From Bacteroidetes bacterium OLB12 (GTDB lineage Bacteria; Bacteroidota; Bacteroidia; Cytophagales; Cyclobacteriaceae): 55,083 bases of DNA. Position numbers and translations under genes: made by a program. The stretch lies in NCBI GenBank assembly GCA_001567185.1, contig LNFR01000094.1, positions 1 through 55,083 of the forward strand. The letters are read 5' to 3'. Of this stretch, positions 436 to 55,083 are shown in pieces (position 1 is the first letter of the stretch; each line of letters opens with the position of its first letter). The notes beneath the pieces are model-generated. The model was not told the DNA's origin, did not search any database, and saw nothing but the letters and a program-made list of their open reading frames with translations.

Positions 436-533
436 AGCCGCAAGGTATTCAGAACCCCTGAATTTATTACAGAAGGGTTGATTGATTGCGAATAATTTAT
501 GTTTTTGCAAACGAAACCCGAACCTTGCAGGGT

Positions 534-1223: not shown

Positions 1224-1675
1224 AGCTTGTATGGTATGAGGGTAGATACATCGCCCTTGTACCGGTGCACTTCGCGTATAATGCTGGAGCTGATAGCCGC
1301 ATAGGCAGGCGAAGTAATCAAAAAAACAGATTCCAGTTCGGGATTAAGTTGCCGGTTAACCTGTGCAATGCTGTTTTCATATTCGAAATCGGTGGTATTG
1401 CGTAAACCGCGTAGCAGGTACCGGGCGCCATTACGCCTGGCAAACTCGGCAGTTAGTTCGGAAAAGGTTTGAACCGAAATGCGGGGTTCATTCTTAAATG
1501 TTTCCTGAATTTTTCCCACCATAAATTCAATGGGGAAGTAGCGTTGGCTTTTGGCACTGTTGTATCCAATAGCAACAATAATCTCTTCAAATAAACCAAG
1601 ACCGCGCAGCACAATATCCTGATGTCCCTTGGTAAACGGATCGAATGAGCCCGGAAAAATAGCGATACGCTTCAT
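1220..1675 (-). CDS. coaD: Phosphopantetheine adenylyltransferase
   Basis: CoaD transfers AMP from ATP to 4'-phosphopantetheine, the penultimate step of coenzyme A synthesis. At 151 residues it is close to the usual 155-165. The N-terminal nucleotidyltransferase signature GSFDPFTKGH is intact, with the catalytic TxGH histidine at residue 18. LLRGLRNTTDFEYE and the C-terminal ISSSIIRE motif follow as in the family. Its ATG overlaps the TAA stop of the upstream DUF3822 gene (TAATG, one shared base), which implies translational coupling. It is the last gene of a three-gene operon. Confidence 0.95.
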   Translation of the reverse strand: MKRIAIFPGSFDPFTKGHQDIVLRGLGLFEEIIVAIGYNSAKSQRYFPIEFMVGKIQETFKNEPRISVQTFSELTAEFARRNGARYLLRGLRNTTDFEYENSIAQVNRQLNPELESVFLITSPAYAAISSSIIREVHRYKGDVSTLIPYKL

Positions 1676-2559
1676 TACTTAAGCAGGTAAACGGAATAGA
1701 GGTCAAAGAAGTGATGATCCTGAATTTCATCAAACAAGTACCCAAACTTGAGGTGGGCACAGCGGCCTCCAAAACCTACATTGCGTACATATTTTACAAA
1801 CTCCTGGTAGTGAGGCGAATTCTTACCAATGTAACCCCACAACACCACCTGGCTTGTCTGCTGATCCATCCCCAGTCCCTTCAACACCAGCATGATGTAT
1901 TTTACATAATCCGAAAATTGTTTGATGAGGAATTGGTTGTAATAAATCAGTTTGCCTTCGGCAACAGCCAGAATGTGAAGTTTAAAACGATCTACATAAA
2001 TATAGAGCGGATTCTGATTGCCTTTGGCATATTCCAGTACACCTTCAATAAGTGCGGCCGACTGATGAACCAACTTTAGCCTGGTATTTTTATAGATGGC
2101 ATTGAGCCACGCATGTAATTCTTTTTGTACTGCAAAAACCGTAACTGCATCGCTGCGATGATTCTTACAAACCAGAATCTCTTCCTTTTCAGGATCAAAC
2201 TGGGCATTGAAGCGCAGGTACTCAGCAGCCGCTTCGGGCATAAACAACGAAGTGGGTACCTGTGCAAACTTGGTGTTCTTTGCGGAAATGATAACCTCGC
2301 TCCAGAAACCTGCGTGTAAAACCGGATGCGAATCAAATAACTGCTGGTATTGATTGATCAGCTCGCTATGCGAATTGGAATCGCCCAATACATAATCCTC
2401 AAAAAAAACAAGCCGCGAATCTTCGGAATCAACAATAGCTACCTGCAAATCGCGTATGCCCAACTGAACCAAAAGCGTGTATTGATGAAGTTTTTCTTCA
2501 TCGAACCGATCATCTTTGATCTTTTTGATCAGCTTAAAGCCTTGTGCAGTCGCTTGCAA
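1675..2559 (-). CDS. DUF3822 family protein
   Basis: A 294-residue cytoplasmic protein with no signal peptide or membrane segment. I recognise it as the DUF3822 family, Bacteroidota proteins usually encoded just before coaD. The fold resembles an actin/ASKHA-like ATPase in the spacing of short beta segments (YTLLVQLGIRDLQVAIVDSE near the start, LYIYVDRFKLHILAVAEGKL around residue 190). That structural comparison is an inference. The stop codon shares a base with the coaD start, and only 9 bases separate it from the gene upstream, so the three genes are probably cotranscribed. Function is unknown. Confidence 0.8.
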   Translation of the reverse strand: MQATAQGFKLIKKIKDDRFDEEKLHQYTLLVQLGIRDLQVAIVDSEDSRLVFFEDYVLGDSNSHSELINQYQQLFDSHPVLHAGFWSEVIISAKNTKFAQVPTSLFMPEAAAEYLRFNAQFDPEKEEILVCKNHRSDAVTVFAVQKELHAWLNAIYKNTRLKLVHQSAALIEGVLEYAKGNQNPLYIYVDRFKLHILAVAEGKLIYYNQFLIKQFSDYVKYIMLVLKGLGMDQQTSQVVLWGYIGKNSPHYQEFVKYVRNVGFGGRCAHLKFGYLFDEIQDHHFFDLYSVYLLK

Positions 2560-2568
2560 AGCAAATGT

Positions 2569-3375
2569 TTATTCCCAATTACCTGAAGTTGACACATCAA
2601 TACGCGAACCGAAGTGAAGTGGTTTACGGTTTTTAGCTTCGTTACTTTCTTTGCGGATAGGATTAACAGGTTTAGGATCTTTTACTTCGATTACCTGAAC
2701 CTTTAAACCTCCCCGTTCAACCGTGCCAACAAAAATTTCAAATTTGGCATCGGTACCGGGTACATTAGCTAATGTTGCCAGATCAAGGGAAGGATCAAAA
2801 GCATTATCTGTAAGAATGATGAGTGGCTGTCCCTTTTTAAGTTCATCGCCAACCTTTACGGCTTCCAGTTTGGTTACAATTCCCTTGTCAACCAAAGGTG
2901 GCTCGTTTACTTTTTCGCCAACTTTAATAAGGTACGTGCGCTGGTTTTTAAATACCTGATCGCCTTCCTTCACTTTAAAACCCATAAAAACTCCATTTTC
3001 GGAAGCTCCTACAGTATAAACCTTTTTAAATATTTTGTCGCGGGCAGATTCAAAACCAAGGGTATCGATATGTACAATCACCTCTTCCTGGCCGTATGCT
3101 AATTGTTTAATTTCTTCTCTGCGCTGAATAATGGGAACTTGCCCGGTTCTGATGAAGTTAGCCAGGGAGTCCCAGTTGGAGGTGTAGCGTTTGTTAACAC
3201 TATTGAAAACAATTTCAGCCTCGCGAATGAATTTGAGTTTTTCAATTACAGCGGCCTCTGTGGTGGCAATAGACGCGCGGTCTTCAATTGTGCCTGCTAC
3301 GCTTCTATACAACAGCCAGGCTAAGTAAAGGCTTAAAATAAGGAGAACACCAGTTAGGATTTTAGTTAAGTTCAT
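2569..3375 (-). CDS. Membrane-anchored protein of unknown function upstream of DUF3822-coaD
   Basis: A 268-residue protein with one N-terminal membrane segment at about residues 7-26 (ILTGVLLILSLYLAWLLY) and no clear cleavage site, so it is probably anchored with the rest in the periplasm. A helical stretch (residues 30-95) is followed by a beta-rich region. The pair VKEGDQVFKNQ and VKVGDELKKGQPLIIL resembles the turn of biotinyl/lipoyl-type barrels. That is a weak similarity and I do not name a function. It heads the operon with DUF3822 and coaD. No family name is recognised. Confidence 0.7.
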   Translation of the reverse strand: MNLTKILTGVLLILSLYLAWLLYRSVAGTIEDRASIATTEAAVIEKLKFIREAEIVFNSVNKRYTSNWDSLANFIRTGQVPIIQRREEIKQLAYGQEEVIVHIDTLGFESARDKIFKKVYTVGASENGVFMGFKVKEGDQVFKNQRTYLIKVGEKVNEPPLVDKGIVTKLEAVKVGDELKKGQPLIILTDNAFDPSLDLATLANVPGTDAKFEIFVGTVERGGLKVQVIEVKDPKPVNPIRKESNEAKNRKPLHFGSRIDVSTSGNWE

Positions 3376-4494: not shown

Positions 4495-4866
4495 TTTCGT
4501 AACACTGCACCCACCAGGCAGGCCCAGCCCGCTATAAAGCAAACCCCACCAACGGGGGTTATCATGCCCAGGGTACTATTATTGGTAAGCGCCAGAATGT
4601 AAAGGCTTCCGCTAAAAAAGAATATGCCCAGTATCATGAAAACACTGGCCATTCTCAACAACCGGCTTTCGCGGTTTAGCATGAGCAAGCCAATGCCCAA
4701 TAAGGCAAGGGTGTGGTAAAACTGATATTGAACACCTAATTCATAGACATCAAGCCTGTTATTTGTAACTAAAGTTGATTTGAGTGCGTGTGCACCAAAT
4801 GCGCCTAACGCCACGGCCAGTAATCCCATAATGCCGGCAGCCACTAATGTTTTTTTTGTGATTCAT
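4491..4866 (-). CDS. DUF423 integral membrane protein, frameshift near start
   Basis: A small inner-membrane protein with about four hydrophobic helices and the family segment LAVALGAFGAHALK. Read as it stands, the frame opens only at a GTG at 4844. An A8 run at 4850-4857 (minus sense) separates it from an upstream ATG at 4864-4866. Removing one A gives MNHKKTLVAAGIMGLL, the expected N-terminus, and a 124-residue protein of normal DUF423 length. That ATG also forms a 4-base ATGA overlap with the stop of yggS, which supports the longer reading. Function of the family is unknown. Confidence 0.8.
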
Positions 4867-5547
4867 GATTCTTGGTTATAGTTACGTGCTCCCAAAATAG
4901 CCGTACCAATCCGGATAAGGGTACTTCCTTGTTCAATAGCAATTTTATAATCAGCACTCATACCCATGGAGAGTTCCGTCATGGTCACATTGGCTGGTAA
5001 TTCACTTTGCTTCAGGGTATCAAATAAACGTTTCAGTTTGCCAAACTCGTTTCGTATCTGTTCTTCGTTTTGTGTAAAAGTGGCCATGCCCATCAGCCCC
5101 ACAATTTCAACGGCAGGATACTTCTGTGCAAATTCAGGCGTTAGCAGGGTTTGAACTTCCTGTATTTCCCAGCCAAACTTGGTTTCTTCCTGTGCAATGT
5201 AAACCTGCAGCAGGCATTTGATTGTCCGGTTGTTTTTTTAGTGCCTGCTTGTTAATTTCTTCAAGTAATTTTTCAGAATCAACCGAGTGAATTAAGGCCA
5301 CAAACGGAGCAATGTATTTCACTTTATTGGTTTGCAGGTGGCCAATCATGTGCCACGCTATATCGGCTGGTAATTCTTTATGCTTGGCAGCCATTTCCTG
5401 GGCTTTGTTTTCACCAAACACCCGCTGCCCGGCATCATAAGCCTGCTTAATTAAACTTACCGGCTGTGTCTTACTTACGGCAATTAAGCGACAACTGGCG
5501 GAGCCTAACTCTACCCTTAGGTTGTCAATATTTTTTTTAATAACCAT
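4863..5547 (-). CDS. yggS: YggS-family PLP homeostasis protein, one frameshift
   Basis: This is the pyridoxal-phosphate-binding YggS/PROSC family, a single TIM-barrel domain that buffers PLP and has no known catalytic activity. The N-terminal half (from ATG 5547) has the PLP lysine in LIAVSKTQP (Lys26), then RVFGENKAQEM and WHMIGHLQTNK. The C-terminal half lies in another frame and carries ELSMGMSADYKIAIEQGST and IRIGTAILGAR. A one-base insertion in the AAA at 5217-5219 joins them. The corrected text reads QCLLQVYIAQEETKFGWE and gives 227 residues, the normal length. It is followed directly by DUF423 and is divergent from the GH3 gene. Confidence 0.88.
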
Positions 5548-19340: not shown

Positions 19341-20900
19341 ATGCAAAGATATACCATTTTGTGGGCGGACGATGAGATTGATTTGCTCAAACCGCATATT
19401 TTGTTCCTGCAACAACGGGGGTATGATATTACCCCGGTAAACAATGGAGCAGAAGCGGTTGAACTTTGTGAAGCCCGCCACTTCGATGTGGTGTTTTTAG
19501 ATGAACACATGCCGGGTGTGTCGGGCCTGGAGGCACTAACTCAAATCAAAAATAACAAGCCCAATCTGCCAGTAGTAATGATTACCAAAAATGAAGAAGA
19601 GCAGATTATGGAAGAGGCCATTGGGGCTAAAATTGACGACTACCTGATTAAACCCATAAACCCAAGCCAGATATTATTAACTGTAAAGAAAATTCTGGAT
19701 AACAAGCGGCTGGTTATTGAAAAGACAAACCTGGGGTATCAACAAGAGTTCAGAAAAATCAGCATGGCTTTTTTAGACGACATGAATCATGCGCAGTGGG
19801 CTGATATTTATAAGAAACTGGTGTTTTGGGAACTGCAAATGGAAGAAGCCAACAACCGCGATATGGCCGAGGTGCTGGAAATGCAGAAGGTAGAGGCTAA
19901 TCTGAATTTTTGCCGCTTTATAAAACGGAATTATGAAAACTGGCTTAACAATCCCAATGCTGATAAACCGCTGCTTTCACATCAACTCATGAAAAAGAAA
20001 GTGTTTCCGGAATTGAAGAGCGGTACACCTTGCTTTTTTGTATTGATTGACAACCTGCGGTGGGATCAATGGAAAATAATTGAACCCTTGTTGAGTGAGT
20101 ATTTTAATATCGAACAGGAAGAATCTTATTATTCTATTCTTCCTACTACAACCGCTTATGCGCGCAATGCTATTTTTTCAGGCATGATGCCCTCTGAGAT
20201 GGCCAAATCTCATCCGGATCTTTGGGTGGGCGAAGATGAGGATGAATCTAAGAATAACTTTGAAGGTGATTTTTTGGCCAAACAGGTGCGTAAGAATAAT
20301 CTCAACATAAAATTCTCGTACAACAAAATTAAAAAACTGGAAGAAGGTCGCGAACTGGCAGATTCCATTCACAATCTGTTTCATAACGATTTGAATGTAA
20401 TCGTTTATAATTTCGTAGATATGCTTTCGCACGCCCGCACCGACATGGCCATGATTCGGGAACTTGCTCCTGATGAATCCGCGTATCGATCCATCACCCG
20501 GTCGTGGTTTATGCACTCGCCCTTGTTTGAAATTTTGAGGAAAGTAGCTGAAAAGAAAGTGAAGGTGATTATTACCACCGATCATGGTACGGTGCGCGTA
20601 AAGCGGCCGTTTAAAATTGTGGGCGATAAAAGTGTAAATACCAATTTGCGCTACAAACAAGGTAAAAACCTGGGCTTTGAGGGCGATAAGATCTTTGAAG
20701 CACCCAAACCCGAACGTTTTTTCTTGCCTAAAACCAATGTATCAACCGCCTATGTGTTTGCCACCGAAGATCAGTTCTTTGCTTACCCCAATAACTATAA
20801 TTATTATGTAAATTTTTATAAAGACACGTTTCAGCATGGTGGGGTAAGCCTGGAAGAGATCATCATTCCATATATTTTGCTATCTTCGAAGAATGCCTGA
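19341..20900 (+). CDS. porX: PorX-type response regulator with PglZ domain
   Basis: A 519-residue two-domain regulator. Residues 1-125 are a receiver domain with the acidic pair in WADDE, the phosphoacceptor Asp54 in VVFLDEHMPG and a C-terminal lysine in DDYLIKP. Residues about 200-519 are an alkaline-phosphatase-superfamily PglZ domain with metal sites in VLIDNLRWDQW, TTTAYARNAIFSG and TTDHGTV. PorX controls T9SS gene expression with PorY and an ECF sigma factor in Porphyromonas and flavobacteria. The PglZ domain of PorX is reported to be a phosphodiesterase acting on oligonucleotides. It is cotranscribed with tsaE, whose start it overlaps by 8 bases. Confidence 0.92.
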   Translation: MQRYTILWADDEIDLLKPHILFLQQRGYDITPVNNGAEAVELCEARHFDVVFLDEHMPGVSGLEALTQIKNNKPNLPVVMITKNEEEQIMEEAIGAKIDDYLIKPINPSQILLTVKKILDNKRLVIEKTNLGYQQEFRKISMAFLDDMNHAQWADIYKKLVFWELQMEEANNRDMAEVLEMQKVEANLNFCRFIKRNYENWLNNPNADKPLLSHQLMKKKVFPELKSGTPCFFVLIDNLRWDQWKIIEPLLSEYFNIEQEESYYSILPTTTAYARNAIFSGMMPSEMAKSHPDLWVGEDEDESKNNFEGDFLAKQVRKNNLNIKFSYNKIKKLEEGRELADSIHNLFHNDLNVIVYNFVDMLSHARTDMAMIRELAPDESAYRSITRSWFMHSPLFEILRKVAEKKVKVIITTDHGTVRVKRPFKIVGDKSVNTNLRYKQGKNLGFEGDKIFEAPKPERFFLPKTNVSTAYVFATEDQFFAYPNNYNYYVNFYKDTFQHGGVSLEEIIIPYILLSSKNA

Positions 20901-31695: not shown

Positions 31696-33093
31696 ATGAG
31701 AAGAGCGCTTTTAACGTTAGGTGTCTGTTTGTGGGTATGGCAAAGCAAAGCTCAGGTTTTTCCGGTCGATACACTTATGAAAAACGGTCCGATAGAAAGC
31801 CGCATCAATCTGGTATTTCTAAGTGATGGGTACCAGGCCCATGAAATAGAAACGTACCTGGCCGATGCAAACGGGTTGCTAACCAGTATGTTCAATCAAG
31901 TGCCATTTAAACACTATAAAAATTATTTTAATGCCTTTGCAGTTAAAGTTCCGTCAGTTGCTTCCGGTGCAAGCCACCCGCGAACCAGCCCGGATAGCGA
32001 TTGTGCACCTGTGCCTGCATTAACTGTTGATAACTACTTTGGAAGTTCGTTTGACCGGTATAACATCCACCGCCTGTTATCTCCCTCAAAACTCCCAACT
32101 GTGGTATCAGTTCTGGCCAGCAGTTTTCCGTTGTATGATCAGGCCTTTATTGTTGTTAACTCGCCCTATTATGGTGGCTCCGGGGGAGATTTTGCCACTT
32201 CATCCACCCACGCAAGTGCGCACGATGTTAGTATTCATGAGATCGGGCATTCTTTTGCACGGCTGGCCGATGAATACTGGGCAGGACAGAGCTATGCAGC
32301 TGAAAAGCCAAATCTTACCCAGCAAAGCAATGCTTCCCTGGTGAAATGGGCCAATTGGGTGGGCACAAACAATGTGGGAGTCTATCCGCATGCCGAGTCG
32401 CCTTCGTGGTATCGTCCGCATCAAAATTGTAAAATGCGATTTCTTAATGCCCCGTTTTGCAATGTTTGTAATGAAACATTTGTGGAGCGGATTCATGCAC
32501 TGGTTAACCCGATAGAATCATATACGCCCGTACTACTCACGAAAGAACTGGGAGAAGAGGCTATTGAATTTTCGCTTTCATTGATAAACCCGGAACCCAA
32601 TACGCTGTCCGTTTCCTGGAAGAATAACAACGTATCATTTGCATCTAATGTAGAGTCGGTTGTCTTACAGCCCTCTGCGTTTACTGCAGACCTCACTAAA
32701 ATTACAGCCACGGTTACAGATAACACCACACTAAGCAGAAGCACTACCCATACTACAAGCCATGTTTATGTAGTGGAGTGGACCATAACCAAGAATGATC
32801 CGGTAACCGGTGTTGAGGTAAAATCTGAAATGCACGAGTATCAGGTAACAGTTTATCCCAATCCGGTGGCAGATGATTTTAATTTTTCGTACACCCTACC
32901 GAAACCAGCCCGGGTAAATGTAGCGGTGTTTGATATGCAGGGGAAACGGATTAAACCACTTGTCAGTCAATACCAGAACAATGGTGAACATTCTTTCCGG
33001 TTTAAGGCTGCTGATGTTTTCGGTTCTTCCGGAGAATACATCCTCAAATTTTCGTTTGATGACCTCGTAATCTCACGAAAAGTGGTGCGGTAA
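31696..33093 (+). CDS. Secreted M64-family metallopeptidase with T9SS type A sorting domain
   Basis: A 465-residue secreted protease. The signal peptide ends near SKAQ-V (residue 19). The M64 (IgA peptidase) domain has RINLVFLSDGYQ and FVVN-like strands, then the zinc motif HEIGHSFARLADEYW with HExxH at residues 181-185. A later cysteine cluster lies in CKMRFLNAPFCNVC. The C-terminal 80 residues (YQVTVYPNPVADDFNFSYTL through ISRKVVR) are a T9SS type A sorting domain, which directs passage through the outer membrane and usually cell-surface attachment. It is the last gene of the fahA run. Confidence 0.9.
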   Translation: MRRALLTLGVCLWVWQSKAQVFPVDTLMKNGPIESRINLVFLSDGYQAHEIETYLADANGLLTSMFNQVPFKHYKNYFNAFAVKVPSVASGASHPRTSPDSDCAPVPALTVDNYFGSSFDRYNIHRLLSPSKLPTVVSVLASSFPLYDQAFIVVNSPYYGGSGGDFATSSTHASAHDVSIHEIGHSFARLADEYWAGQSYAAEKPNLTQQSNASLVKWANWVGTNNVGVYPHAESPSWYRPHQNCKMRFLNAPFCNVCNETFVERIHALVNPIESYTPVLLTKELGEEAIEFSLSLINPEPNTLSVSWKNNNVSFASNVESVVLQPSAFTADLTKITATVTDNTTLSRSTTHTTSHVYVVEWTITKNDPVTGVEVKSEMHEYQVTVYPNPVADDFNFSYTLPKPARVNVAVFDMQGKRIKPLVSQYQNNGEHSFRFKAADVFGSSGEYILKFSFDDLVISRKVVR

Positions 33094-37827: not shown

Positions 37828-39762
37828 TTAGGCAAAGATAAACGAAACAGGGCTTAGTTTCTTTTTTTTGAGGATAACCACGGCTCCTTCCCGTTTAAAC
37901 GTGCGCCCCGCAAAATCCAGGATTTCGGCATTCCACACATAGGTACCTTCCGGTAAGGCGCGCCCATTATTTGTGCCATTCCAGGGTTCGTTTTGCCTGT
38001 TGTAATAAACCATGGTTCCCCACCGGTCAAACACCTTCAATTCTAATCGGGTAATATAATGCCCCCGTACGGTAAAGGTTTCGTTTTCTGTTGGGCCAAC
38101 GCCATCGGGTGTAAAGGCGGTGGGGTGGAAGAGGTTTACTTCGCGTGTTACTACTAATCGGTTAGATACGGAGTTGGGTAATCCCACCTGTACAGGATGG
38201 GCAGTTACCACGTATTGTAATACCTGGTTTACTTCATCGGGCTGATCATCTACCCACACGGTATCCGTACCCAGGTTAAGGGTGGCCATTAAACCACCAC
38301 TCTTATCAAACTTTTGAAGTTGGTAATTAGCAACACCACTTTGCCATCCTTTAAATCCATTCCATCGAACGGTAATCACATTTTCATTATCAACGGTGGC
38401 AGATAAACGAATAGGGCAAACTAAAATACCCTGAATGCTTACGTTATCGCATAAGTCGGTGTAATTAATGCGGTAGCAGTTGCCAGACTCCGGGGTATAA
38501 TCAGGATCGGCAAAATTGCGCACCGGTGTTTGTGCAATGGCCGAAAATCCTGCTCCGGGTTGCCCGCGTAAAACGGAATATTGAGCAACGGAAAACCCGG
38601 GGTCTTGTTGCCAGCTTAGCTGCACTCCGGGCGAACCTACCTGGGCACTTACATTGGTTACAGCAGCGGGAGTAACCGTGGTAAATGCATCACCACATTT
38701 CTCGAGCGAAATACTACGACCACCGCCCGCGTAATGGTTAATCACCTGGTAACAATAATTGGTTTTACAAACTACATCTACATCGTTCAGTTGATTGGGT
38801 GAGCCCGGTATGGTGGTGTACGAAGAATTATTGCGGATAATCTCGGTATTGAGTACTCCTACTGAAGCCGTGGCCCAGGTTAACCGGTTGTTTCCGTTTT
38901 CAATAGCAAGATCAAAATTATGACTGCATACCGGTGCGGAGTACGTGTTGGTATTGGTGCAGGGATCGAACGCGCTTAACCGGAAACAATAAAAGTTATT
39001 TTCGGTTTGCAGGTTAGGAACCGTTACGGTGTTAACCCCATACAACGTTTGAAACTGTTGAAACACGGTGCCGCTGTTTATCCCTATTTCCAGTTTGTAC
39101 TGAATGTTGGCTTGCGGGGTAAAATCCAGTTGAAGCGAGGTGTTATTAAGAACAGTGAGCGTATTTATTTGCGGAACTGGTAAAACCGGTAATGCAGTAA
39201 AAGACTGAACTTGTGCGGCACAATTGTTTGCCGAGTTGACATCGCGACCTCTTACACTGATATTGTAGGTACCCGCACCCCCATAATTATGCGATGCCGT
39301 TTGGTTGTTGCTGTTGGGGATAGCGGTTTCAACAGTTCCATCATTATTGAAATCAATAAAATATTGATCGTAGGTTTTGTCGGTAATTTTAATGGAAGTT
39401 TGGAAGCCGGAGCAGGTATAAACTTCAAATGCGGGTTGTATGTTGGGATCTACCGTAATCTGAATATCATCGGCTCCAATGTTCTGGTACAAAACTGAAA
39501 GTGTATAGGTGCCGGGTTGTGTATAGGTAATGATGAATTGATTTTGTTGTGCAGCGGAACCATCGCCAGAAGTCATGAGGCATGGAAATCCTGCCGTGCA
39601 TTGGCCGGTGGTAATCAGGTTGGCATCTAATATGGTAACCGTTAGCGGAGCACACCCTTTAATTTCATCTACACTAAACCGGCCCAGCCTGCTGAGGTAT
39701 TGCGCGTGTGCACTAACTGCAGTAAATAAAAAGAACAATCCGATAAACGATGCTTTTTTCAC
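37828..39762 (-). CDS. T9SS type B (gliding motility-associated C-terminal) secreted protein
   Basis: A 644-residue secreted protein with a signal peptide (MKKASFIGLFFLFTAVSAHA). PKD-like and fibronectin-like beta domains fill the middle (QFIITYTQPGTYTLSVLYQN; ATASVGVLNTEIIRNNSSY). The last 95 residues, from FHPTAFTPDGVGPTENE through LKVFDRWGTMVYYN to GTYVWNAEILDFAGR, are the gliding-motility-associated (CHU_C) type B T9SS signal. The tail after VVILKKKK is odd. It follows an A8 run (37862-37869 on the plus strand); with one A fewer the protein would end as ILKKRN, so the tail may be an indel artefact. The start lies 6 bases from the hutH stop. Confidence 0.88.
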   Translation of the reverse strand: MKKASFIGLFFLFTAVSAHAQYLSRLGRFSVDEIKGCAPLTVTILDANLITTGQCTAGFPCLMTSGDGSAAQQNQFIITYTQPGTYTLSVLYQNIGADDIQITVDPNIQPAFEVYTCSGFQTSIKITDKTYDQYFIDFNNDGTVETAIPNSNNQTASHNYGGAGTYNISVRGRDVNSANNCAAQVQSFTALPVLPVPQINTLTVLNNTSLQLDFTPQANIQYKLEIGINSGTVFQQFQTLYGVNTVTVPNLQTENNFYCFRLSAFDPCTNTNTYSAPVCSHNFDLAIENGNNRLTWATASVGVLNTEIIRNNSSYTTIPGSPNQLNDVDVVCKTNYCYQVINHYAGGGRSISLEKCGDAFTTVTPAAVTNVSAQVGSPGVQLSWQQDPGFSVAQYSVLRGQPGAGFSAIAQTPVRNFADPDYTPESGNCYRINYTDLCDNVSIQGILVCPIRLSATVDNENVITVRWNGFKGWQSGVANYQLQKFDKSGGLMATLNLGTDTVWVDDQPDEVNQVLQYVVTAHPVQVGLPNSVSNRLVVTREVNLFHPTAFTPDGVGPTENETFTVRGHYITRLELKVFDRWGTMVYYNRQNEPWNGTNNGRALPEGTYVWNAEILDFAGRTFKREGAVVILKKKKLSPVSFIFA

Positions 39763-45435: not shown

Positions 45436-46345
45436 ATGCGTTTATTTTCTGAGTACGTTTGGATTGTTGGCTTTGGTTTCGGTTATGTTATCTTCTTGCC
45501 TGAATAATGAAGTGCCTGTGAATGAGGCTGAAGAACAGTGGAAGGCAGATACTACTGTTATTGGTGCTTATATCAGAGCGAATGAAATTCCGGCCCTTAA
45601 AGATGCAAGTGGTATTTATTTCAATATTACTGAACTGGGTTCCGGGTTTCCACCCAAATCAACAAGCCAGGTTCGGTTTGGTTATAAAGTTTACATAATG
45701 GGCTCAACGGTTGTGTTAGATGAAAATGATGAAGCCCTTTCTGATATAATGGACCTGATTCCGGGCATGCGTATAGGGCTTTCCCTGATGCCTCCCGGTA
45801 GTGTTGCTGAACTTTATGTTCCATCTGGTTATGCCTATGGAACGGCAACTCTACCCACTATACCGGCTAATTCTAATCTGAAGTTTGAAGTGGAGCTTAT
45901 AAGTGTAACCATCCCTACTTCACAATTAAATCAATTAGGGGCTGATACCGTAGCACTGGATCAATACCTTACTACCAATTCGGTTGAAAATGTGATAAAA
46001 GATACAACGGGTCTGAGGTATGTGATAACCGAAGAAGGTGATGGGGCCATACCTACTCTTTATAATAAGGTTAAGATTAACTATACCGGAAAAATTTTAT
46101 CGAACGGGAATACTTTCTTTACCGGTTCGAATAGCCCAACACCCAACTTTGATAGCCGGGTGATTAATTATATCCATGCTTTTCAGGCTGGGTTAACAAA
46201 ATTGAAAGTGGGTTCTAAAGCTACCCTGTATGTTCCATCCGTATTAGCCTTTGGTGATCAGCCCGTAACAGGAAATGGTGGAATTACTATACCGGCTAAC
46301 TCTAACCTGTTGTATGAGGTTGAACTTGTTGAAATTATAGAGTAA
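45436..46345 (+). CDS. Lipoprotein with two FKBP-type peptidyl-prolyl isomerase domains, one frameshift
   Basis: From ATG 45436 the frame ends after about 23 codons. Dropping one T from TTTT at 45445-45448 gives MRLFLSTFGLLALVSVMLSSC, a perfect lipoprotein signal, and a 302-residue protein. Domain 1 (about residues 58-155) has VRFGYKVYIMGSTV, LIPGMRIGLSLMPPGSVAEL and IPANSNLKFEVELISV. Domain 2 (about 190-302) has VKINYTGKILSNGNTFF, AFQAGLTKLKVGSKATL and IPANSNLLYEVELVEI. Both follow the FKBP fold; domain 1 is more diverged. It probably assists folding at the outer membrane or in the periplasm. A terminator follows. Confidence 0.85.
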
Positions 46346-46365: not shown

Positions 46366-46425
46366 TAAAGGGCTGCCTCCAAAATTTGCCTGTGCAAACA
46401 ACGGAAGCGGCCCTTTATTTTTCTG
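46366..46425. terminator. Bidirectional terminator between the FKBP and glycosyltransferase genes
   Basis: TAAAGGGCTGCCTCC (46366-46380) pairs with GGAAGCGGCCCTTTA (46403-46417), with one mismatch and one G-U pair. A small TTTGC/GCAAA hairpin lies in its loop. A TTTATTTTT run follows. The right arm overlaps the stop codon of the convergent glycosyltransferase gene. Confidence 0.75.
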
Positions 46426-47590
46426 CTCGTGCAGATTTCTCCCAAACCACCGATTGCTTTTTGCGCAGCAGGCGCAATGCTCCGGCAAATACCGATAGGT
46501 TCATCATGGTGAAATAGTAGGGAATAAAAAATCCTTTAATGCCAATCTTCTTGTCGCGGAGAAGATGCCCGGCCAGTGCTAAGAAATAGAAAGCACACTG
46601 GGCCACAAACGTTAACTGGTAGAAAGCAGCGTAAGGTATCAGAATACTATTGGTAACCAAAACAAGAAGAAGTGCAAGGGGAGCTAAAGACCAACGCATG
46701 GCCCGGTGCGAAACATATTGCCAGCTAATCCAGCCATATTTAAAAACATTCAGCAACTCAGGTAGCCGCAGTATTGCTTGTATTCCTCCAGCGGAAATTC
46801 TCACTTTTCGTTTCCACTCATCTTTAATGCTGGCCGAAGCGGTTTCTATCGCATACGCATCAGGCTCGTAGGCAAAACGATAACCGGCAGCAACAACTTT
46901 CATAGAAGTAACAAAGTCTTCAATGATTGTATCGGTATGTGGGTTTACGTACAACTCCTTTCTAACAGCAAATAATTCACCGGCTGCACCAATGGCAGTT
47001 GTAAATTTTGAGTCCATCGTTTTAAGAGCCGATTCATATTTCCAGTAAAGTCCTTCACCAGCCCCGGAAGCATTGTCCTGGCTTAATGAAACAATTCGTT
47101 TCTCTCCGGCAACGCCACCAACTTTAGGATCGGCAAAGTGCCGCACTATATTTTTCAAAGCTTCTTTATTGAGATCGGTATTGGCATCGGAGAAAATAAC
47201 AATGGGGGTTTCTACTTTCTCCATGATCCGGTTTACGGCATGAATTTTACCTTTTCGTTCGGGTGTATGAAATACAGTTACGGCAGGATAGCCCTGGCAT
47301 AGTTCTACGGTTTTGTCTGTGGATCCATCGGCTACAATCCAGAGTCGCACCTTGTTGGCCGGGTAATCTAGTTCTAAAGAATTTTTAATTTTTTGTTCGA
47401 TATATTTCTCCTCGTTATAGGCTGCTACCAACAGGGTGATTTCTGGCAGATCATGATCCGGAGGTACCGAGGGGGCCTTATTTTTCCCAAAAACCTTGCT
47501 CAGAATGTAAATTATCAGGCCATATCCTACATAGGTGTATGCCACAATGGCCAAACTAAGCCAAAACAGTAAAAAAATGACAATAAACAC
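46415..47590 (-). CDS. Membrane glycosyltransferase of family 2 (cellulose synthase/hyaluronan synthase-like)
   Basis: A 391-residue processive-type GT2. One N-terminal helix (FIVIFLLFWLSLAIVAYTYVG) precedes a catalytic domain with LLVAAYNEEKYIEQKI, VADGSTDKT, FSDANTDLN, GAAGELFAVRKEL and TIIEDFVTSMKV. Three C-terminal helices follow (LAPLALLLVLVTNSILIPYA and later). This layout fits synthesis of an exported polysaccharide or glycolipid. No partner transport genes are adjacent. The next gene, divergent, is the giant repeat protein. Confidence 0.88.
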   Translation of the reverse strand: MFIVIFLLFWLSLAIVAYTYVGYGLIIYILSKVFGKNKAPSVPPDHDLPEITLLVAAYNEEKYIEQKIKNSLELDYPANKVRLWIVADGSTDKTVELCQGYPAVTVFHTPERKGKIHAVNRIMEKVETPIVIFSDANTDLNKEALKNIVRHFADPKVGGVAGEKRIVSLSQDNASGAGEGLYWKYESALKTMDSKFTTAIGAAGELFAVRKELYVNPHTDTIIEDFVTSMKVVAAGYRFAYEPDAYAIETASASIKDEWKRKVRISAGGIQAILRLPELLNVFKYGWISWQYVSHRAMRWSLAPLALLLVLVTNSILIPYAAFYQLTFVAQCAFYFLALAGHLLRDKKIGIKGFFIPYYFTMMNLSVFAGALRLLRKKQSVVWEKSARAEK

Positions 47591-47773: not shown

Positions 47774-50700
47774 ATGTTGATGAAGAATTTAAGGTATTTA
47801 ATTACTGGGATTACCCTTTTCCTAACAATTGGCTCTAAATCGGAGGCAGCCCCTGGAAATGGATTGGCACCCCAAATTCAGGTAAGTATTGCGTCTGCCA
47901 TCACTTCGGGCGATACCCACGATTTTGGAAATGTAAATCTACTTTCATCAACCGCTCCCCTTACCATCAAAATTGAAAATATCGGTACACCGGAAGATCT
48001 TACCATTACTTCAGTGTTGGTAACAGGCACCCATGCTTCCGATTTTACGCTGGATACATCGGGGTTATTGGGTGCTGTACCTCCTGCTGGCTCAACATCC
48101 TTTACGGTTGTATTTGCACCTTCGGCCAGTGGTACCAGAACGGCAGCCATCGAAATTCAATCGGATGATGCCGGTGGTACTTTTGTTATCAACCTGACGG
48201 GGGTTGGGGTTAAGCTGAATCAAACAATAACCTTTGGAGCATTAACACCCCAGACTTATGGTGATGCAAGTTTTACTCTTTCTGCTACGGCAACCTCCGG
48301 CCTGCCGGTAAGTTATGTAAGCAATAATCCATCGGTTGCAACCGTAAGCGGAAATATAGTTACGATAGTGGGAGCGGGTTCTGCCGACATAACAGCATCT
48401 CAGTCCGGTGATGCTACTTACCTGGCAGCCACATCGGTATCTCAAACATTAGTTATTAATAAGGCAACGCTAACCGCTACCGCCAACGATCAAACAAGAG
48501 TATATAACACCTTCGATCCTGTATTTACAATTTCCTATTCCGGTTTTGTAAATGGCGATGATGAATCGGATCTGGATACTCCCCCTACCGCCACCACCAC
48601 GGCTGTTTTGTTGAGCCCGGTTAATACTTATCCCATACTACCTGCAGGCGGAGTTGATAACAATTATTCGTTTACATATGTAAACGGCACACTCACCATT
48701 ACCAAAGCAACTCCTGTAATTACCTGGAATAATCCAGCGGCAATCACGTATGGTACTTTATTAAGCGCTACCCAATTGAATGCCACAAGTGGTGGTGTGG
48801 CCGGAACATTTACCTACACACCTGCTTCGGGCACGTTGTTGAATGCAGGAGCAAACCAAAGCTTAAGTGTTGACTTTGTTCCTACGGATGCGGTGAATTA
48901 TAATTCCGTACTGGGAACCACGGTTCAAATCACAGTTAATAAAGCCACACTTACCGCTACAGCTGATAATAAAACTCGGGTGTATGGTGCAGCTGATCCC
49001 GCCTTCACCATTGCTTATTCCGGTTTTGTAAACAGCGAGACTTCATCGGTAATTGATAGTCCACCAACAGCTGGAACCACGGCAACTGCCTCATCAGATG
49101 TAGGAAGTTATCCCATTACATTAACGGGTGGAACAGACAATAATTACACGATTAACCTGGTGGCCGGCACGTTGTCGGTTACAAAAGCCACGCTCACCGC
49201 CACAGCAGAAAATAAAAGCCGGGCTTATGGTGCAGCCGATCCTGCCTTCACCATTGCTTATTCTGGTTTTGTAAACGGAAACACATCAGCCGATATTGAT
49301 ACTCCACCTGCAATTAACACGAGTGCAGGCTCCGCAACATCTCCGGGAGTTTATCCAATAACCCTTACCGGAGGTGTTGACAATAATTATGAACTAACTC
49401 TGGTAGATGGTTCATTAACGATAACCAAGGCTTTGCTTACCGTTACTGCAAATGATCAATCCCGACAATATGGGGCAGCAAATCCGACCCTTACGGTAAC
49501 TTATTCCGGATTTGCGAACAGTGAAACACCAGCCAACCTTACAACGGCACCCATAGCTTCTACTGTTGCGGTCGGTACTTCTAATGTGGGTACGTACCCC
49601 ATTACGGTTAGCGGTGGTGTGTCTGGCAATTACGATTTTAGTTACGTAGCGGGTACTCTTACTATAACAAAATCAACCGTTATCGCAACTGCCAATAATC
49701 AAACCCGAACCTATGGAGCTACTAATCCGACCTTAACCATTACTTACACAGGGTTTGCAAATGGAGAAACATTTTCAGTATTAGATGTTCAACCTACCAC
49801 CAGTACAACTGCTGGGGCCACATCACCGGTGGGTAGCTATCCGATTCAGGTAACAGGAGGTTCGGATGGTAACTATTTAATTGCCCCGGTATCGGGAACA
49901 CTTACGATCACCAAGGCTACCTTAACGGCAACAGCTGTTAATGCAAGCCGCCCATACGGGTCGGTTAACCCAACGTTTACAATCAGCTATCTTGGGTTTC
50001 AAAATGGAGAAAATGCTTCTGTATTGGATACAGCACCGCAAACAAATTCGGCAGCCACATTTACCTCCGATGCAGGTACCTACCCGATTACCGTTTCCGG
50101 GGGATCGGATAATAACTACGATTTTACCTATGTAAATGGTACGCTTACCATTACCAAAGTTACGATTACAGCTACTGCGGCCAATGCAAGCCGGGTATTT
50201 GGTACAGAAAACCCAACCTTTACTATTAACTACACCGGTTTTGTAAATGGGGAAGACGCCAGTGATCTGGATGCACTTCCGGTGGCCAGTACAACAGCAA
50301 CTACGGGTAGCAATGTAGGAACCTATCCTATAACCGTGAGTGGAGGTGCCGATGTGAATTACAATTTTACCTATGTAAACGGAACATTAACGATCACAAA
50401 AGCCACGCCTACTGTTACGTGGAATAATCCATCGGCTATTGTTTATGGAACTGCGTTGGGAGCAACCCAGTTGAATGCCACAGCGTCTGTAGCGGGTTCA
50501 TTTGTATATACACCGGCATCTGGCACAGTGTTACATGTTGGTGCTAATCAGGTTTTGTCGGTGAACTTTACACCCACCGATGCCACTAACTATAATTCCG
50601 TATCGGGCACTACGGTTTTAATTACGGTTAACAAAGCAACTCTTACAGCCACTGCTAATAATTTGTCGCGCACCTATGGGGCATCAAATCCTACTTTAAC

Positions 50701-53700
50701 CATTTCCTATTCCGGGTTTGTGAATGGAGACAATGTATCTGTACTTGATACACAACCTTCAATCGCTACCGCAGTTAACAGTACAACCGCGGTTGGTACA
50801 TATCCCATTACTTTGAGTGGGGGAGGGGATAATAACTACGATTTTGTATTGGTAAATGGCACGTTTACCATCACGAAAGCCACCCTGGTTGCAACAGCAC
50901 AGAATGCCAGCCGGGTTTATGGAGCCAATAACCCTGCTTTCGTAATAACCTATACGGGCTTTATGAACGGTGAAAATTCCAGTGTGCTGGATACACCTCC
51001 CGGTGCAAGTTCGGCTGCAACGGCAACCAGTGCAGTTGGCACTTATCCGATTGTGGTGTCCGGAGGGTTGGATAACAATTATACATTTACTTATACTTCA
51101 GGTACGCTCACCATTACAAAGGCTGTGATTACCGCCACAGTTGCCAATGCAACCCGAATCTATGGTGTGGCTAACCCAACGTTTAATATTACTTATTCGG
51201 GGTTTGTTAATTCGGAAACGGCAGCAGTGCTGGATGTTTTGCCTACTGCAAGTACTCCTGCTGGGCCAACCAGTAATGTGGGTGCTTATCCTATCAATGC
51301 ATCGGGGGGTAGTGATAACAATTATTCATTTACCTATGTAAGTGGTATTCTCACCATTACAAAGGCAACTCCGGTTGTTACCTGGAATAACCCGGCCGCT
51401 ATTACTTACGGTACTTCGTTAAGCGCTACACAACTAAATGCTACGGCAACAGTTACCGGAAGTTTTGTTTACACACCTCCGGCAGGTACAGTATTGAACG
51501 CAGGGGCTAACCAGGTCTTGTCGGTAAACTTTACACCAACGGATGCCATCAACTATGAGTCAGTTAGTGGAACTACTGTTCAGATTACCGTAAACAAGGC
51601 TACCCCTGTATTGTCCTGGCCACCGCCTTCAGCCATTACATACGGCACACCGTTAGGAGGCTCGCAGTTAAATGCAACGGCTAATGTTGCGGGTACGTTT
51701 GTCTATTCTCCGGCAAGCGGAACCGTGTTAAATGCAGGAGCCAACCAAACCTTATCCGTAAACTTTACACCAACGGATGGTACCAATTATAATTCAGTAT
51801 CCGGATTTACAACCCAGATTACTGTAAATAAAGCAACACCGGTGGTAACCTGGAATAATCCGGCTGCCATTACGTACGGAACACCTTTAAGTGCTACCCA
51901 ACTGAATGCTACAGCAACGGTGCCGGGTAATTTTGTATATGCGCCCGGCCTTGGTACAATACTAAATGCCGGTGCTAACCAGACCTTGTCGGTTAACTTT
52001 ACACCTACCGATGCTGTAAACTATAACTCAGTTAACGGAACTACGGTATTGATTACAGTTAATAAGGCTACACCCACTGTTACGTGGAATAACCCGGCTG
52101 CCATTACGTATGGAACTGCATTGGGAGCAACGCAGTTAAATGCTACGGCATCCGTTAGCGGAAGTTTTGTTTACACACCTCCGGCAGGAACAATTTTAAA
52201 TGCGGGTGCGAATCAAACCCTTTCAGTAAACTTTACACCTACTGATATCAACAACTATAATCCGGTTAACGGAACTACTGTACTAATTACGGTAGGCAAA
52301 GCTACTCCCACTATAACGTGGAACAACCCAGCGCCCATAACCTACGGTACCGCCCTAAGTGCCACACAACTGAATGCATCGTCCCCGGTTGCCGGTACAT
52401 TTGTTTATACACCAACAATCGGAACATTGTTGAATGCAGGAGCAAACCAGGTGTTATCTGTAAACTTTACTCCAACAGATGCTTCCAACTATAATTCCGT
52501 AACAAACGTACAACGCCTGATTACGGTTAATAAGGCTACTCCGGTTATTACGTGGACTAATCCGGCTCCTATTATTTATGGAACACCGCTAAGCGCCACC
52601 CAACTTAATGCAACGGCTAATGTACCAGGCACCCTGGTTTACACACCAGCGGCCGGCACAATCTTAAATACGGGCGCTAACCAAACGTTAACTGTAAACT
52701 TTACTCCAACGGATGCATCAAACTATAATTTGGTATCCGGAACAACGGTATCGATTACAGTAAATAAAGCAACACCGGTAGTAAGTTGGTCAACCCCACT
52801 GCCGATTAAAATAAATGAGCCCTTAACGGCTGCGCAATTAAATGCCACAGCAAATGTGCCGGGTACGTTTAGTTATTCTCCTGCTGCAGGCACCTCCTTT
52901 GCCAGTGTGGGTACCTATACCCTAACCGTAAGTTTTACACCTGCCGATGCAACAAACTATAACAACGTGCCTAGTACGCAGGTACAAATTCAGGTAAACA
53001 ATAAAGACAATCCGGTTGTAACCTGGAATAATCCGGCAGCAATAACGTATGGAACTACACTGGGAGCTACCCAGTTAAATGCTACGGCAAATGTGCCAGG
53101 TACTTTTGTTTACACGCCAGCAGCCGGAACCTTATTGAATGCGGGAGCTAACCAGACGTTATCGGTCAATTTTATTCCCACCGATGCTATTAACTATAAC
53201 TCCGTAAGTGCGAATGTTACTCTTACCGTAAACAAAGCTACGTTAGCGGCAATTGCAACCAGCACCAGCCGGGTTTATGGAGCAGCGAACCCTGCATTTG
53301 TTATAACCTATGCCGGGTTTGTGAATGGAGAAACGGAGTCAGTCATTGATACACCGCCCACTGCCTCCAGTTCGGCTATTGCCGGAAGCAATGCCGGAAG
53401 TTCATTTCCTATTGTTCCGGCCGGAGGTCAGGATAATAATTATACATTCAACTATATAAACGGCACACTAACCATCACCAAAGCTGCGCTTATTGCCCGG
53501 GCAGACGATAAAGCCAGACTATATGGTACGGCTAATCCTGCTCTTACAATTGGATATACTGGCTTTGTTAATGGAGATACCGAAGCAGACATTACACCTC
53601 CCGGAATTTCTACCACGGCAACAATTACAAGTAATGTGGGTACTTATCCCATTCAATTGAGTGGAGGAATTTCAACCAATTATACCTTTACATTGCAAAA

Positions 53701-55083
53701 TGGAACACTTACCATTAATAAGGCCACGCTGGTTGCCCGTGCAGATGATAAATCGAAATCATACGGGCAGGTAAATCCTGCATTAACGATTTCGTACACC
53801 GGTTTTTTAAATGGCGATAATACGGCTTCCATAACACAGCCCACCATCGCCACTACGGCAAACAACACAAGCAATGTGGGTACTTATCCAATCACCTTAA
53901 GTGGTGGGGCCGCTCAGAATTATGCATTTGTACTGCAGCCAGGAACACTTACAGTTAATAAAGCAGATCTTACTGTTACGGCTAATAATCAGACCAGAGT
54001 CTACGGTGCATCAAACCCCACGTTCACCTTGGTATATTCTGGTTTTATGAATGGAGAAACTGTTTCGGTTGTAAATGTTCGGCCAGTAGCCGCTACATCG
54101 GCTACCGTTACCAGCAATGCCGGTACTTATCCTATAACTTTATCCGGAGGATCAGACAATAATTATAATCTGAACCTTGTGTCGGGAACCCTTACGGTAA
54201 GTAAAGCTGCCATCAATGCTGTTGTAGTTAGCACATCCCGTACTTATGGAGCCCTAAATCCGGTCTTTACAATTAACTACTCCGGTTTTAGGAATGGCGA
54301 TGATGCTTCAGATTTCGACACACCACCTATGGCAAGCACTACGGCAACGGTAACCAGTGCTGTCGGAACTTACCCGATTACGGCCTCGGGTGGGATTGAT
54401 AATAATTACACCTTTAACTATACGAGTGGAACGCTTACCATTACCAAAGCCGTGTTAACGGCAACAGCAGCAAGCACCAGCAGACCTTACGGAACGCCTA
54501 ACCCGGTTTTTGTAATCAACTATTCTGGTTTTGTAAACGGTGAAAACAGTTCTGTGATTGATGTGCTTCCTTCTGCAACCACTACAGCAATTGCAGCAAG
54601 TCCAATTGGTACCTATCCCATAAATGTTTCCGGTGGGTCGGATAACAATTACTCCTTTGTTTATGTAAACGGAGTGCTTACGGTTGGTAAGACTGCGCCC
54701 ATTGTTACATGGAATAACCCGGCACCCATTGTATATGGTACTGCATTAAGTTCAACGCAGCTAAACGCCACCGCAAATGTTTCGGGTACGTTTACCTATA
54801 CACCTGCCTCCGGAACCATTCTGCAGGCGGGATCAAACCAAATTCTTACCGTTAACTTTACACCAACCGATCAAACAAACTATAGCTCGGTAAATGGGAC
54901 CACGGTATTAATTACCGTAAACAAAGCTACTCCGGTTGTAACCTGGAATAATCCTGCTCCCATAACGTATGGAACACCGTTAAGCGCTACGCAACTGAAT
55001 GCAACAGCCAATGTGCCGGGTACTTTTACTTACTCGCCCATTGCGGGAACGATATTAAATGCGGGTGCCAATCGAACCCTGTC
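47774..55083 (+). CDS. Giant secreted repeat protein with MBG/Ig-like domains, 3' end beyond window
   Basis: The frame is open for 2436 codons to the window edge. The start is ATG 47774, or ATG 47780 two codons later. Residues 1-25 are a signal peptide (NLRYLITGITLFLTIGSKSEA). Residues about 36-146 are a choice-of-anchor-D/Hydin-like beta sandwich (THDFGNVNLLSSTAPLTIKI). Codons from 48221 to 48460 form one Ig-like repeat (QTITFGALTPQTYGDASFTL). From 48461 the protein is only repeats of two kinds, A (about 81 residues, MBG/YDG type) and B (about 78). Proteins of this kind in Bacteroidota usually end in a T9SS sorting domain, which lies outside. An adhesin or gliding-surface protein is likely, but this is inference. 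The DNA is less A/T-homopolymeric than its neighbours, with no frame break seen. Confidence 0.9.
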   Translation, partial: MLMKNLRYLITGITLFLTIGSKSEAAPGNGLAPQIQVSIASAITSGDTHDFGNVNLLSSTAPLTIKIENIGTPEDLTITSVLVTGTHASDFTLDTSGLLGAVPPAGSTSFTVVFAPSASGTRTAAIEIQSDDAGGTFVINLTGVGVKLNQTITFGALTPQTYGDASFTLSATATSGLPVSYVSNNPSVATVSGNIVTIVGAGSADITASQSGDATYLAATSVSQTLVINKATLTATANDQTRVYNTFDPVFTISYSGFVNGDDESDLDTPPTATTTAVLLSPVNTYPILPAGGVDNNYSFTYVNGTLTITKATPVITWNNPAAITYGTLLSATQLNATSGGVAGTFTYTPASGTLLNAGANQSLSVDFVPTDAVNYNSVLGTTVQITVNKATLTATADNKTRVYGAADPAFTIAYSGFVNSETSSVIDSPPTAGTTATASSDVGSYPITLTGGTDNNYTINLVAGTLSVTKATLTATAENKSRAYGAADPAFTIAYSGFVNGNTSADIDTPPAINTSAGSATSPGVYPITLTGGVDNNYELTLVDGSLTITKALLTVTANDQSRQYGAANPTLTVTYSGFANSETPANLTTAPIASTVAVGTSNVGTYPITVSGGVSGNYDFSYVAGTLTITKSTVIATANNQTRTYGATNPTLTITYTGFANGETFSVLDVQPTTSTTAGATSPVGSYPIQVTGGSDGNYLIAPVSGTLTITKATLTATAVNASRPYGSVNPTFTISYLGFQNGENASVLDTAPQTNSAATFTSDAGTYPITVSGGSDNNYDFTYVNGTLTITKVTITATAANASRVFGTENPTFTINYTGFVNGEDASDLDALPVASTTATTGSNVGTYPITVSGGADVNYNFTYVNGTLTITKATPTVTWNNPSAIVYGTALGATQLNATASVAGSFVYTPASGTVLHVGANQVLSVNFTPTDATNYNSVSGTTVLITVNKATLTATANNLSRTYGASNPTLTISYSGFVNGDNVSVLDTQPSIATAVNSTTAVGTYPITLSGGGDNNYDFVLVNGTFTITKATLVATAQNASRVYGANNPAFVITYTGFMNGENSSVLDTPPGASSAATATSAVGTYPIVVSGGLDNNYTFTYTSGTLTITKAVITATVANATRIYGVANPTFNITYSGFVNSETAAVLDVLPTASTPAGPTSNVGAYPINASGGSDNNYSFTYVSGILTITKATPVVTWNNPAAITYGTSLSATQLNATATVTGSFVYTPPAGTVLNAGANQVLSVNFTPTDAINYESVSGTTVQITVNKATPVLSWPPPSAITYGTPLGGSQLNATANVAGTFVYSPASGTVLNAGANQTLSVNFTPTDGTNYNSVSGFTTQITVNKATPVVTWNNPAAITYGTPLSATQLNATATVPGNFVYAPGLGTILNAGANQTLSVNFTPTDAVNYNSVNGTTVLITVNKATPTVTWNNPAAITYGTALGATQLNATASVSGSFVYTPPAGTILNAGANQTLSVNFTPTDINNYNPVNGTTVLITVGKATPTITWNNPAPITYGTALSATQLNASSPVAGTFVYTPTIGTLLNAGANQVLSVNFTPTDASNYNSVTNVQRLITVNKATPVITWTNPAPIIYGTPLSATQLNATANVPGTLVYTPAAGTILNTGANQTLTVNFTPTDASNYNLVSGTTVSITVNKATPVVSWSTPLPIKINEPLTAAQLNATANVPGTFSYSPAAGTSFASVGTYTLTVSFTPADATNYNNVPSTQVQIQVNNKDNPVVTWNNPAAITYGTTLGATQLNATANVPGTFVYTPAAGTLLNAGANQTLSVNFIPTDAINYNSVSANVTLTVNKATLAAIATSTSRVYGAANPAFVITYAGFVNGETESVIDTPPTASSSAIAGSNAGSSFPIVPAGGQDNNYTFNYINGTLTITKAALIARADDKARLYGTANPALTIGYTGFVNGDTEADITPPGISTTATITSNVGTYPIQLSGGISTNYTFTLQNGTLTINKATLVARADDKSKSYGQVNPALTISYTGFLNGDNTASITQPTIATTANNTSNVGTYPITLSGGAAQNYAFVLQPGTLTVNKADLTVTANNQTRVYGASNPTFTLVYSGFMNGETVSVVNVRPVAATSATVTSNAGTYPITLSGGSDNNYNLNLVSGTLTVSKAAINAVVVSTSRTYGALNPVFTINYSGFRNGDDASDFDTPPMASTTATVTSAVGTYPITASGGIDNNYTFNYTSGTLTITKAVLTATAASTSRPYGTPNPVFVINYSGFVNGENSSVIDVLPSATTTAIAASPIGTYPINVSGGSDNNYSFVYVNGVLTVGKTAPIVTWNNPAPIVYGTALSSTQLNATANVSGTFTYTPASGTILQAGSNQILTVNFTPTDQTNYSSVNGTTVLITVNKATPVVTWNNPAPITYGTPLSATQLNATANVPGTFTYSPIAGTILNAGANRTL
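48461..55083 (+). repeat. Array of 28 coding repeats of two types (A: 243 bp, B: 234 bp)
   Basis: Each unit begins at a Lys codon (mostly KAT). Type A starts: 48461, 48941, 49184, 49427, 49670, 49913, 50156, 50633, 50876, 51119, 53234, 53480, 53720, 53960, 54203, 54446. Type B starts: 48704, 50399, 51362, 51596, 51830, 52064, 52298, 52532, 52766, 53003, 54689, 54923 (the last cut by the window). Type A consensus: TATA-NxSRxYGAxNPxFTI-YSGFVNGE, then VGTYPI, GGxDNNY and NGTLTIT. Type B consensus: TPVVTWNNPAAITYGTxL, SATQLNATA, GTFVYTPAAGT and LNAGANQTLSVNFTPTDA. Most spacings are exactly 243 or 234 bases; exceptions are 231, 237, 240 and 246. Confidence 0.93.
51362..53233 (+). repeat. Run of eight consecutive type B repeats
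   Basis: Eight type B units follow each other (starts 51362 to 53003). Neighbouring units share long nearly identical DNA stretches around the NAGANQTLSVNFTPTD segment. The unit at 52766 is diverged: the YGT motif is replaced by INEP, and the LNAGANQ turn by SFASVGTYTLTVSF. The unit at 53003 begins KDNPVVTW rather than KATPVVTW. The pattern suggests local duplication followed by drift. Confidence 0.85.

Follow-up and report, generated by a model that had tools for sequence, protein, structure and literature searches.

A fixed-order array of two Ig-like module types in a giant putative type IX surface protein of Bacteroidetes bacterium OLB12 and its relatives

The locus and its giant open reading frame

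The window analysed here, a stretch of 55,083 nucleotides, is the entire contig C94 (LNFR01000094.1, forward strand) in assembly GCA_001567185.1 of Bacteroidetes bacterium OLB12, which comprises 118 contigs and is rated 92.46% complete. Its 3' end is occupied by an open reading frame (ORF; 47774-55081, plus strand) of 2436 open codons without a stop before the window end; as position 55083 is the contig end, the gene is incomplete. The ORF codes for a putative giant surface protein composed mainly of two types of immunoglobulin (Ig)-like units, A and B, whose order recurs in related bacteria. Its features are as follows.

47774..47851, plus strand: signal-peptide-like N-terminus of 26 residues (translation read by eye)
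47894..48175, plus strand: choice-of-anchor D domain, residues 41-134 (NCBIfam NF012200, 57.2 bits, cut-off 45)
48218..48463, plus strand: single Ig-like unit of a third type (translation by eye and start of the first A unit)
48464..48706, plus strand: unit 1, type A (MBG_2 search, segmentation)
48707..48943, plus strand: unit 2, type B (B-unit query, segmentation)
48944..50401, plus strand: units 3-8, six A (MBG_2 search, segmentation)
50402..50635, plus strand: unit 9, type B (B-unit query, segmentation)
50636..51364, plus strand: units 10-12, three A (MBG_2 search, segmentation)
51365..53236, plus strand: units 13-20, eight B, including the most conserved positions 15, 17, 19 and 20 (B-unit query, segmentation)
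52769..53005, plus strand: unit 19, an aberrant B unit of 79 residues without the I.YGT motif (segmentation, identity comparison)
53237..54691, plus strand: units 21-26, six A (MBG_2 search, segmentation)
54692..55081, plus strand: unit 27 (B) and the start of unit 28 (B; 52 residues), ended by the contig end (B-unit query, segmentation)

Motif segmentation of the ORF yielded 28 units in the order ABAAAAAABAAABBBBBBBBAAAAAABB, reproducing exactly the number of repeats, the two types and the order given in a preliminary description made from the sequence alone. A units comprise 80-82 residues and complete B units 77-79 residues. The register of 243 or 234 bases with few exceptions, stated in the same description, was found as well: 13 of the 16 A units measure 243 bases (two 240, one 246), and eight of the 11 complete B units 234 bases (two 237, one 231). 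Unit 28 (B), interrupted by the window end, has only 156 bases.

Type A corresponds to the Pfam family MBG_2 (PF18676), which matches the ORF with 1048 bits in 16 stretches; each of the 16 A units singly exceeds the Pfam gathering cut-off (E values of 4e-25 to 6e-18). No family model in Pfam or NCBIfam matches the type B unit; a single B unit used as query recovered all 12 B units of the window. A search of the rest of the source assembly for A or B copies found none beyond the window array. Structure prediction for an A-B-A segment indicated beta structure for A, and B alone was confidently predicted as a beta domain (pLDDT 97.3) with an Ig/PKD-like arrangement, the Z scores being modest. The choice-of-anchor D region overlaps a Pfam HYDIN/ASH-type Ig match (residues 47-143), and the matches to HYDIN, ASH, Cep192_D4 and TMEM131 at residues 47-145 correspond to the same region. 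Pfam matches to Ig_CFAP65_4th, Ig_CFAP65_7th, Ig_CFAP65, Cep192_D7, DUF6253 and DUF5421 were dropped, as none had a single passing stretch; they look like summed weak repeat matches.

Conservation of unit order among relatives

PF18676 was sought in 58 genomes including that of the window (one genome per species in the genome sets compared); 19 had a match, and 11 loci from eight genomes were read. A scan with the region preceding the sorting domain confirmed seven loci in metagenome-assembled genomes (MAGs) of Cyclobacteriaceae (4), Cytophagales (2) and Flammeovirgaceae (1). Two of them were new, namely ACE_BAC5 (L113) and UWPOB_CYTO2 (L114), while the unit orders of L112, L115, L116, L117 and L118 are those of G009, G008, G026, G019 and G014, respectively.

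The genomes G008, G009, G031 and ACE_BAC5 share the order ABAAAAAABAAABBBBBBBBAAAAAABBBBBAA of 33 units, the first 28 of which match the window array; odd unit lengths agree too, e.g. the succession 79-77-82-80-80. The neighbours of the identical-order arrays are syntenic, on both sides in three relatives and on one side in G031. Independently of the segmentation, the genome-wide MBG_2 totals of G008, G009 and G031 amount to 18 each, which is the number of A units in the 33-unit order. UWPOB_CYTO2 has 36 units, and G026 has 37, with four additional ones at the N-terminal end. The array of G019 is divided between two contigs, the first starting with ABABBB and the second comprising two extra B units followed by units 7-33 in the standard order. 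With the unit numbering of G026, UWPOB_CYTO2 and G019 anchored by hand at the C-terminal end, all differences among the eight arrays (window and seven relatives) fall before unit 7, so the order of units 7-33 (27 units) is kept in all seven canonical-type relatives and that of units 7-28 in the window. The complete relatives measure 3190, 3191, 3194, 3434 and 3530 residues from stop to stop, consistent with the earlier expectation of a protein extending beyond 2436 residues.

Other arrays were found in G014, which carries a B18A2 array at the same locus (53% identity for the adjacent glycosyltransferase of the GT2 family, 48% for SprF), and on a contig of G010, where AAAAA precedes a related C-terminus. 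A further MBG_2 match, in L105 (G015:C2, ~327.6-328.1 kb), lies in a frame with one stop inside the match.

Evolution of the units by position

Units group by position, not by species. Over 28 array pairs, units at the same position had mean identities of 0.67-0.84, compared with 0.58-0.62 for units of the same type elsewhere, and in 385 of the 465 tests among the six closer arrays a unit's best match lay at its own position. Mapped onto the unit trees, position labels required 26 changes for A and 26 for B units (shuffled means, 111.4 and 91.5), compared with 114 and 95 for species labels (shuffled, 98.7 and 84.3). Five comparisons gave a synonymous divergence (dS, NG86) of 1.4-2.1 and two left it undefined, so that it is saturated and hence rough; nonsynonymous divergence (dN) was 0.10-0.26 over seven comparisons, and dN/dS of about 0.05-0.08 in five comparisons indicates purifying selection.

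The highest same-position identities occur in the B block at units 15, 17, 19 and 20 (0.81-0.85). Unit 19 shows 0.81 identity between species and at most 0.55 to other B positions. It lacks the I.YGT motif yet is among the best conserved units, and it is possibly a hinge or special site.

Duplication and rearrangement within the arrays

Exact DNA repeats reach 30 bp at most in the window array; the corresponding maxima are 19-44 bp for six relatives (ORFs or gene stretch compared) and 78 bp for the truncated L117. The window units have a mean protein identity of 0.61 and DNA identities of at most 0.76. Within-array DNA identity does not exceed 0.77 in six of the seven arrays compared, reaching 0.87 in the UWPOB_CYTO2 duplicate. 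The window array thus lacks the near-identity of repeats, in DNA and protein, by which Periscope proteins are recognized. For adjacent positions of the same type, identity lies just 0.009 above the type average; among the offsets tested, the greatest excess was 0.026 (4 pairs). The only clear recent event in these arrays is the duplication of units 1-3 (A-B-A) in UWPOB_CYTO2 (protein identity 0.87-0.90, DNA identity 84.4% over 720 bases), which crosses block borders and is situated at the N-terminal edge.

The preliminary description had proposed growth of the array via unequal crossing-over inside blocks. This proposal is not supported: the order is kept, units cluster by position, same-type neighbours show hardly any excess similarity, and the clear recent duplication spans blocks. 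Identity of the block order in distant relatives, now found for 33 units in four of them, is the outcome which that description itself had named as arguing against ongoing rearrangement. As to the repeat tree and the prediction of an A-B junction that it had suggested, the tree gave the grouping by position, and the A-B-A model gave beta structure for A.

Rearrangement at this locus does happen, because G014 holds another array (B18A2) there, but it is rare. Periscope-like duplication also occurs in the group, but in another gene. This MBG_2 gene of G030 (L103 4625-7742; G030:C1 ~488.6-491.7 kb) has a frame of 2837 residues with A units only, as judged by the present models, and matches itself perfectly along 1882 bp when shifted by 1236 bp, i.e. 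a recent duplication of the Periscope kind. In the G026 array (L116), units 6-9 and 10-13 share DNA identities of 0.70-0.77, above those of other pairs there, perhaps reflecting an old four-unit duplication or conversion.

Neighbouring genes and type IX secretion

Upstream of the array, the window contains the following genes.

46415..47590, minus strand: GT2-family glycosyltransferase gene (PF00535; tblastn in relatives)
45464..46345, plus strand: FKBP-type peptidyl-prolyl isomerase gene (PF00254; in the loci of four relatives)

The GT2 gene adjoins the array in the relatives with an upstream flank, with 53-82% identity in long matches and only fragments at two loci. The C-terminal end was tested with hidden Markov models in one relative, L113, whose protein terminates in a type B sorting domain of the type IX secretion system (T9SS; TIGR04131/CHU_C, 69.7 bits, cut-off 35), preceded by a weak cadherin-like match. 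The L113 array is followed by a PorP/SprF-family gene (TIGR03519 and PF11751, above cut-offs), and a PD40 gene with weak similarity to PorE (72 bits versus a cut-off of 600) is likewise located 3' of it. Homologues of these two genes follow the array in all eight relatives with a downstream flank; the G031 contig ends earlier. Export by the T9SS, and the sorting domain to be expected with it, had been suggested in the preliminary description; it is supported by the sorting domain of the orthologue and the PorP/SprF gene behind it. Neither the window gene's own end nor its SprF gene was found in its assembly.

The source genome contains T9SS tails, with 25 Por_Secre_tail matches (21 above cut-off) and 16 CHU_C matches. 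The contigs C3, C104, C10 and C1, which carry such tails, were considered as the missing 3' part and rejected, since their ORF lists show other genes; the ORF reading covered these four of eight contigs retrieved, the others being C86, C118, C70 and C76. Contig C3 (L054, G000:C3; 5.5 kb) truncates two repetitive genes, a second one with a T9SS tail (1-3147) at one end and one with similar repeats (4735-5517) at the opposite end, and apparently breaks in repeats. A scan of viral contigs using the C-terminus revealed no relative. Elsewhere in the window, a Peptidase M64 domain with a T9SS Por_Secre_tail (31696-33093, plus strand), a PKD-containing protein that carries a type IX sorting domain (CHU_C; 37828-39762, minus strand) and a fusion of a response-regulator receiver domain with a PglZ domain (19341-20900, plus strand) are encoded.

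Proposed function and alternative explanations

We consider it probable that the gene specifies a fixed-order, SprF-anchored T9SS type B surface fibre of ~3,190 residues with an old, position-locked stalk of 33 modules. Judged from the sequences of its relatives, which would supply the missing end, the window ORF would represent the first three quarters of such a protein. Directed by the N-terminal signal, the chain would be exported by the Sec system. The PorP/SprF-like product of the adjacent gene would receive the type B sorting domain at the C-terminus, and may carry the chain through the T9SS and retain it at the outer membrane. Once folded, the modules would form a fibre of set length, presumably rod-shaped, with the choice-of-anchor D domain at its far end, and the window protein, too, would be anchored at the cell surface. 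We propose that this fibre is more likely non-mobile than mobile, because SprB of Flavobacterium johnsoniae is described to bind SprF, type B proteins are suggested to be retained by PorP-like proteins, and a lack of mobility is postulated for those whose neighbours resemble PorE (PMC9143113). As to the stability of the array, we think that the divergence of the units leaves homologous recombination little substrate and that selection keeps individual units.

An SprB-like adhesin travelling over the cell surface in gliding would likewise be a giant repetitive protein with a type B sorting domain and an adjacent PorP/SprF-family gene, but here the PD40 gene with its weak resemblance to PorE follows, and we regard mobility in these uncultured species as unlikely. 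Still less probable is a Periscope-type stalk that unequal crossing-over lengthens and shortens, with strains differing in fibre length, a reading in line with the preliminary description. The 720-bp duplication in UWPOB_CYTO2, the additional N-terminal units of G026 and the altered N-terminal part in G019, the different array of G014 in the same locus, and the perfect 1236-bp duplications in the other MBG_2 gene of the genus would all suit such a stalk; they are outweighed by the constant order from unit 7 onwards in seven relatives and in the window, and by the low DNA identity and short exact repeats within the arrays. Collapsed or mis-joined repeats could in principle produce a false order, given that most sources are MAGs and that the contigs of the window and of G019 break inside the array. 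Such an assembly artefact is hardly credible, as the same order occurs in arrays which differ at 16-33% of their amino acids with dS saturated, where independent errors would not recreate it, and as the MBG_2 counts of three genomes equal the 18 A units of that order.

Several observations weigh against the proposed fixed-order surface fibre. The A and B models were derived from the window's own units. In tests involving G026 or G019, the best match was at the same position in only 185 of 375 cases. Counted in quick trees on short units, which resolve poorly, strict position clades do not reach the numbers that the label counts would lead one to expect. Of the 18 A and 15 B positions, 11 and 5 form such clades with six species, 7 and 5 with eight, and 8 and 7 with the window, G031 and UWPOB_CYTO2 alone. 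The roughness of dS belongs here as well. The C-terminus of G009 gave 10 matches of 28-42% identity in the window's assembly, mostly to the sorting domain alone, and L113 SprF gave five matches of 22-31% only. No adhesive domain was identified; in Pfam and NCBIfam, the region before the stalk shows only the choice-of-anchor D/HYDIN-type Ig domain. Finally, the C-terminal region is clear in only six of 35 other genomes of the same genus, with a 27-residue piece in a seventh (G031), and G014 and G010 carry other arrays; the protein is therefore patchy across the genus rather than universal, its order being fixed inside one group and different beyond.

More tentatively, the stalk might be an addressed scaffold in which each of the 33 modules has a role set by its position, with core units 15-20 (including unit 19) as hinge or binding site, selection fixing length and order, and only the part before unit 7 free to change. 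This extension of the fixed-order fibre is possible, though we would not expect it to hold.

Comparison with known systems

Repetitive bacterial surface proteins are often taken as length-variable rulers. MBG_2, known from such rulers, is here found in a fixed order, which has been maintained while synonymous sites became saturated and the units diverged so far that recombination would have little substrate. A block pattern in a single sequence is no sign of ongoing rearrangement, and each module acts as a fixed part rather than an interchangeable spacer. With this array one can ask whether divergence among the repeats is by itself what fixes the length of the fibre, and which single modules are important.

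Publications on this protein, or on any frozen MBG_2 array, did not turn up in a literature search. The closest counterparts by domain are Periscope proteins with MBG_2 stalks, such as CdrA of Pseudomonas, whose repeats are described as highly identical and as varying in number among similar strains (PMC8201768). Like these, the present protein is a bacterial surface protein with a long tandem array of folded domains of the same family; unlike them, it has units of ~60% identity, short exact DNA repeats and an order kept across species. With SprB and other T9SS type B proteins it shares the giant or long repetitive chain, the type B C-terminal domain and the adjacent PorP/SprF-family gene (PMC9143113, PMC12618676). 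In contrast to sprB-sprF, the PD40 gene follows here; the comparison covers chain, tail and neighbouring gene. The biofilm-associated protein BAP of Acinetobacter is also a giant protein with several Ig-like module types; it is reported to contain two or four copies of a module set, its repeat regions being variable among strains (PMC4647330). GhpA of Aureispira is among the matches of the fold searches, with a Z score of a size that may reflect a common arrangement only.

Conservation of the number and order of tandem repeats has been described for human and other eukaryotic proteins (PMC3995336), and repeats conserved between species and diverged within the protein are reported as a general trend across life, including bacteria (PMC5120217). 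The present array resembles these in that number and order are kept between species while the units have diverged, and differs from the eukaryotic proteins and the general trend in being one long two-type array of a bacterial surface protein. Since such conservation is documented (PMC3995336, PMC5120217), its kind is already known, and what is added here is its length, its two-type order and the contrast with MBG_2 stalks. The array is ordinary in kind; what is unusual is the firmness with which a long MBG_2 array is frozen.
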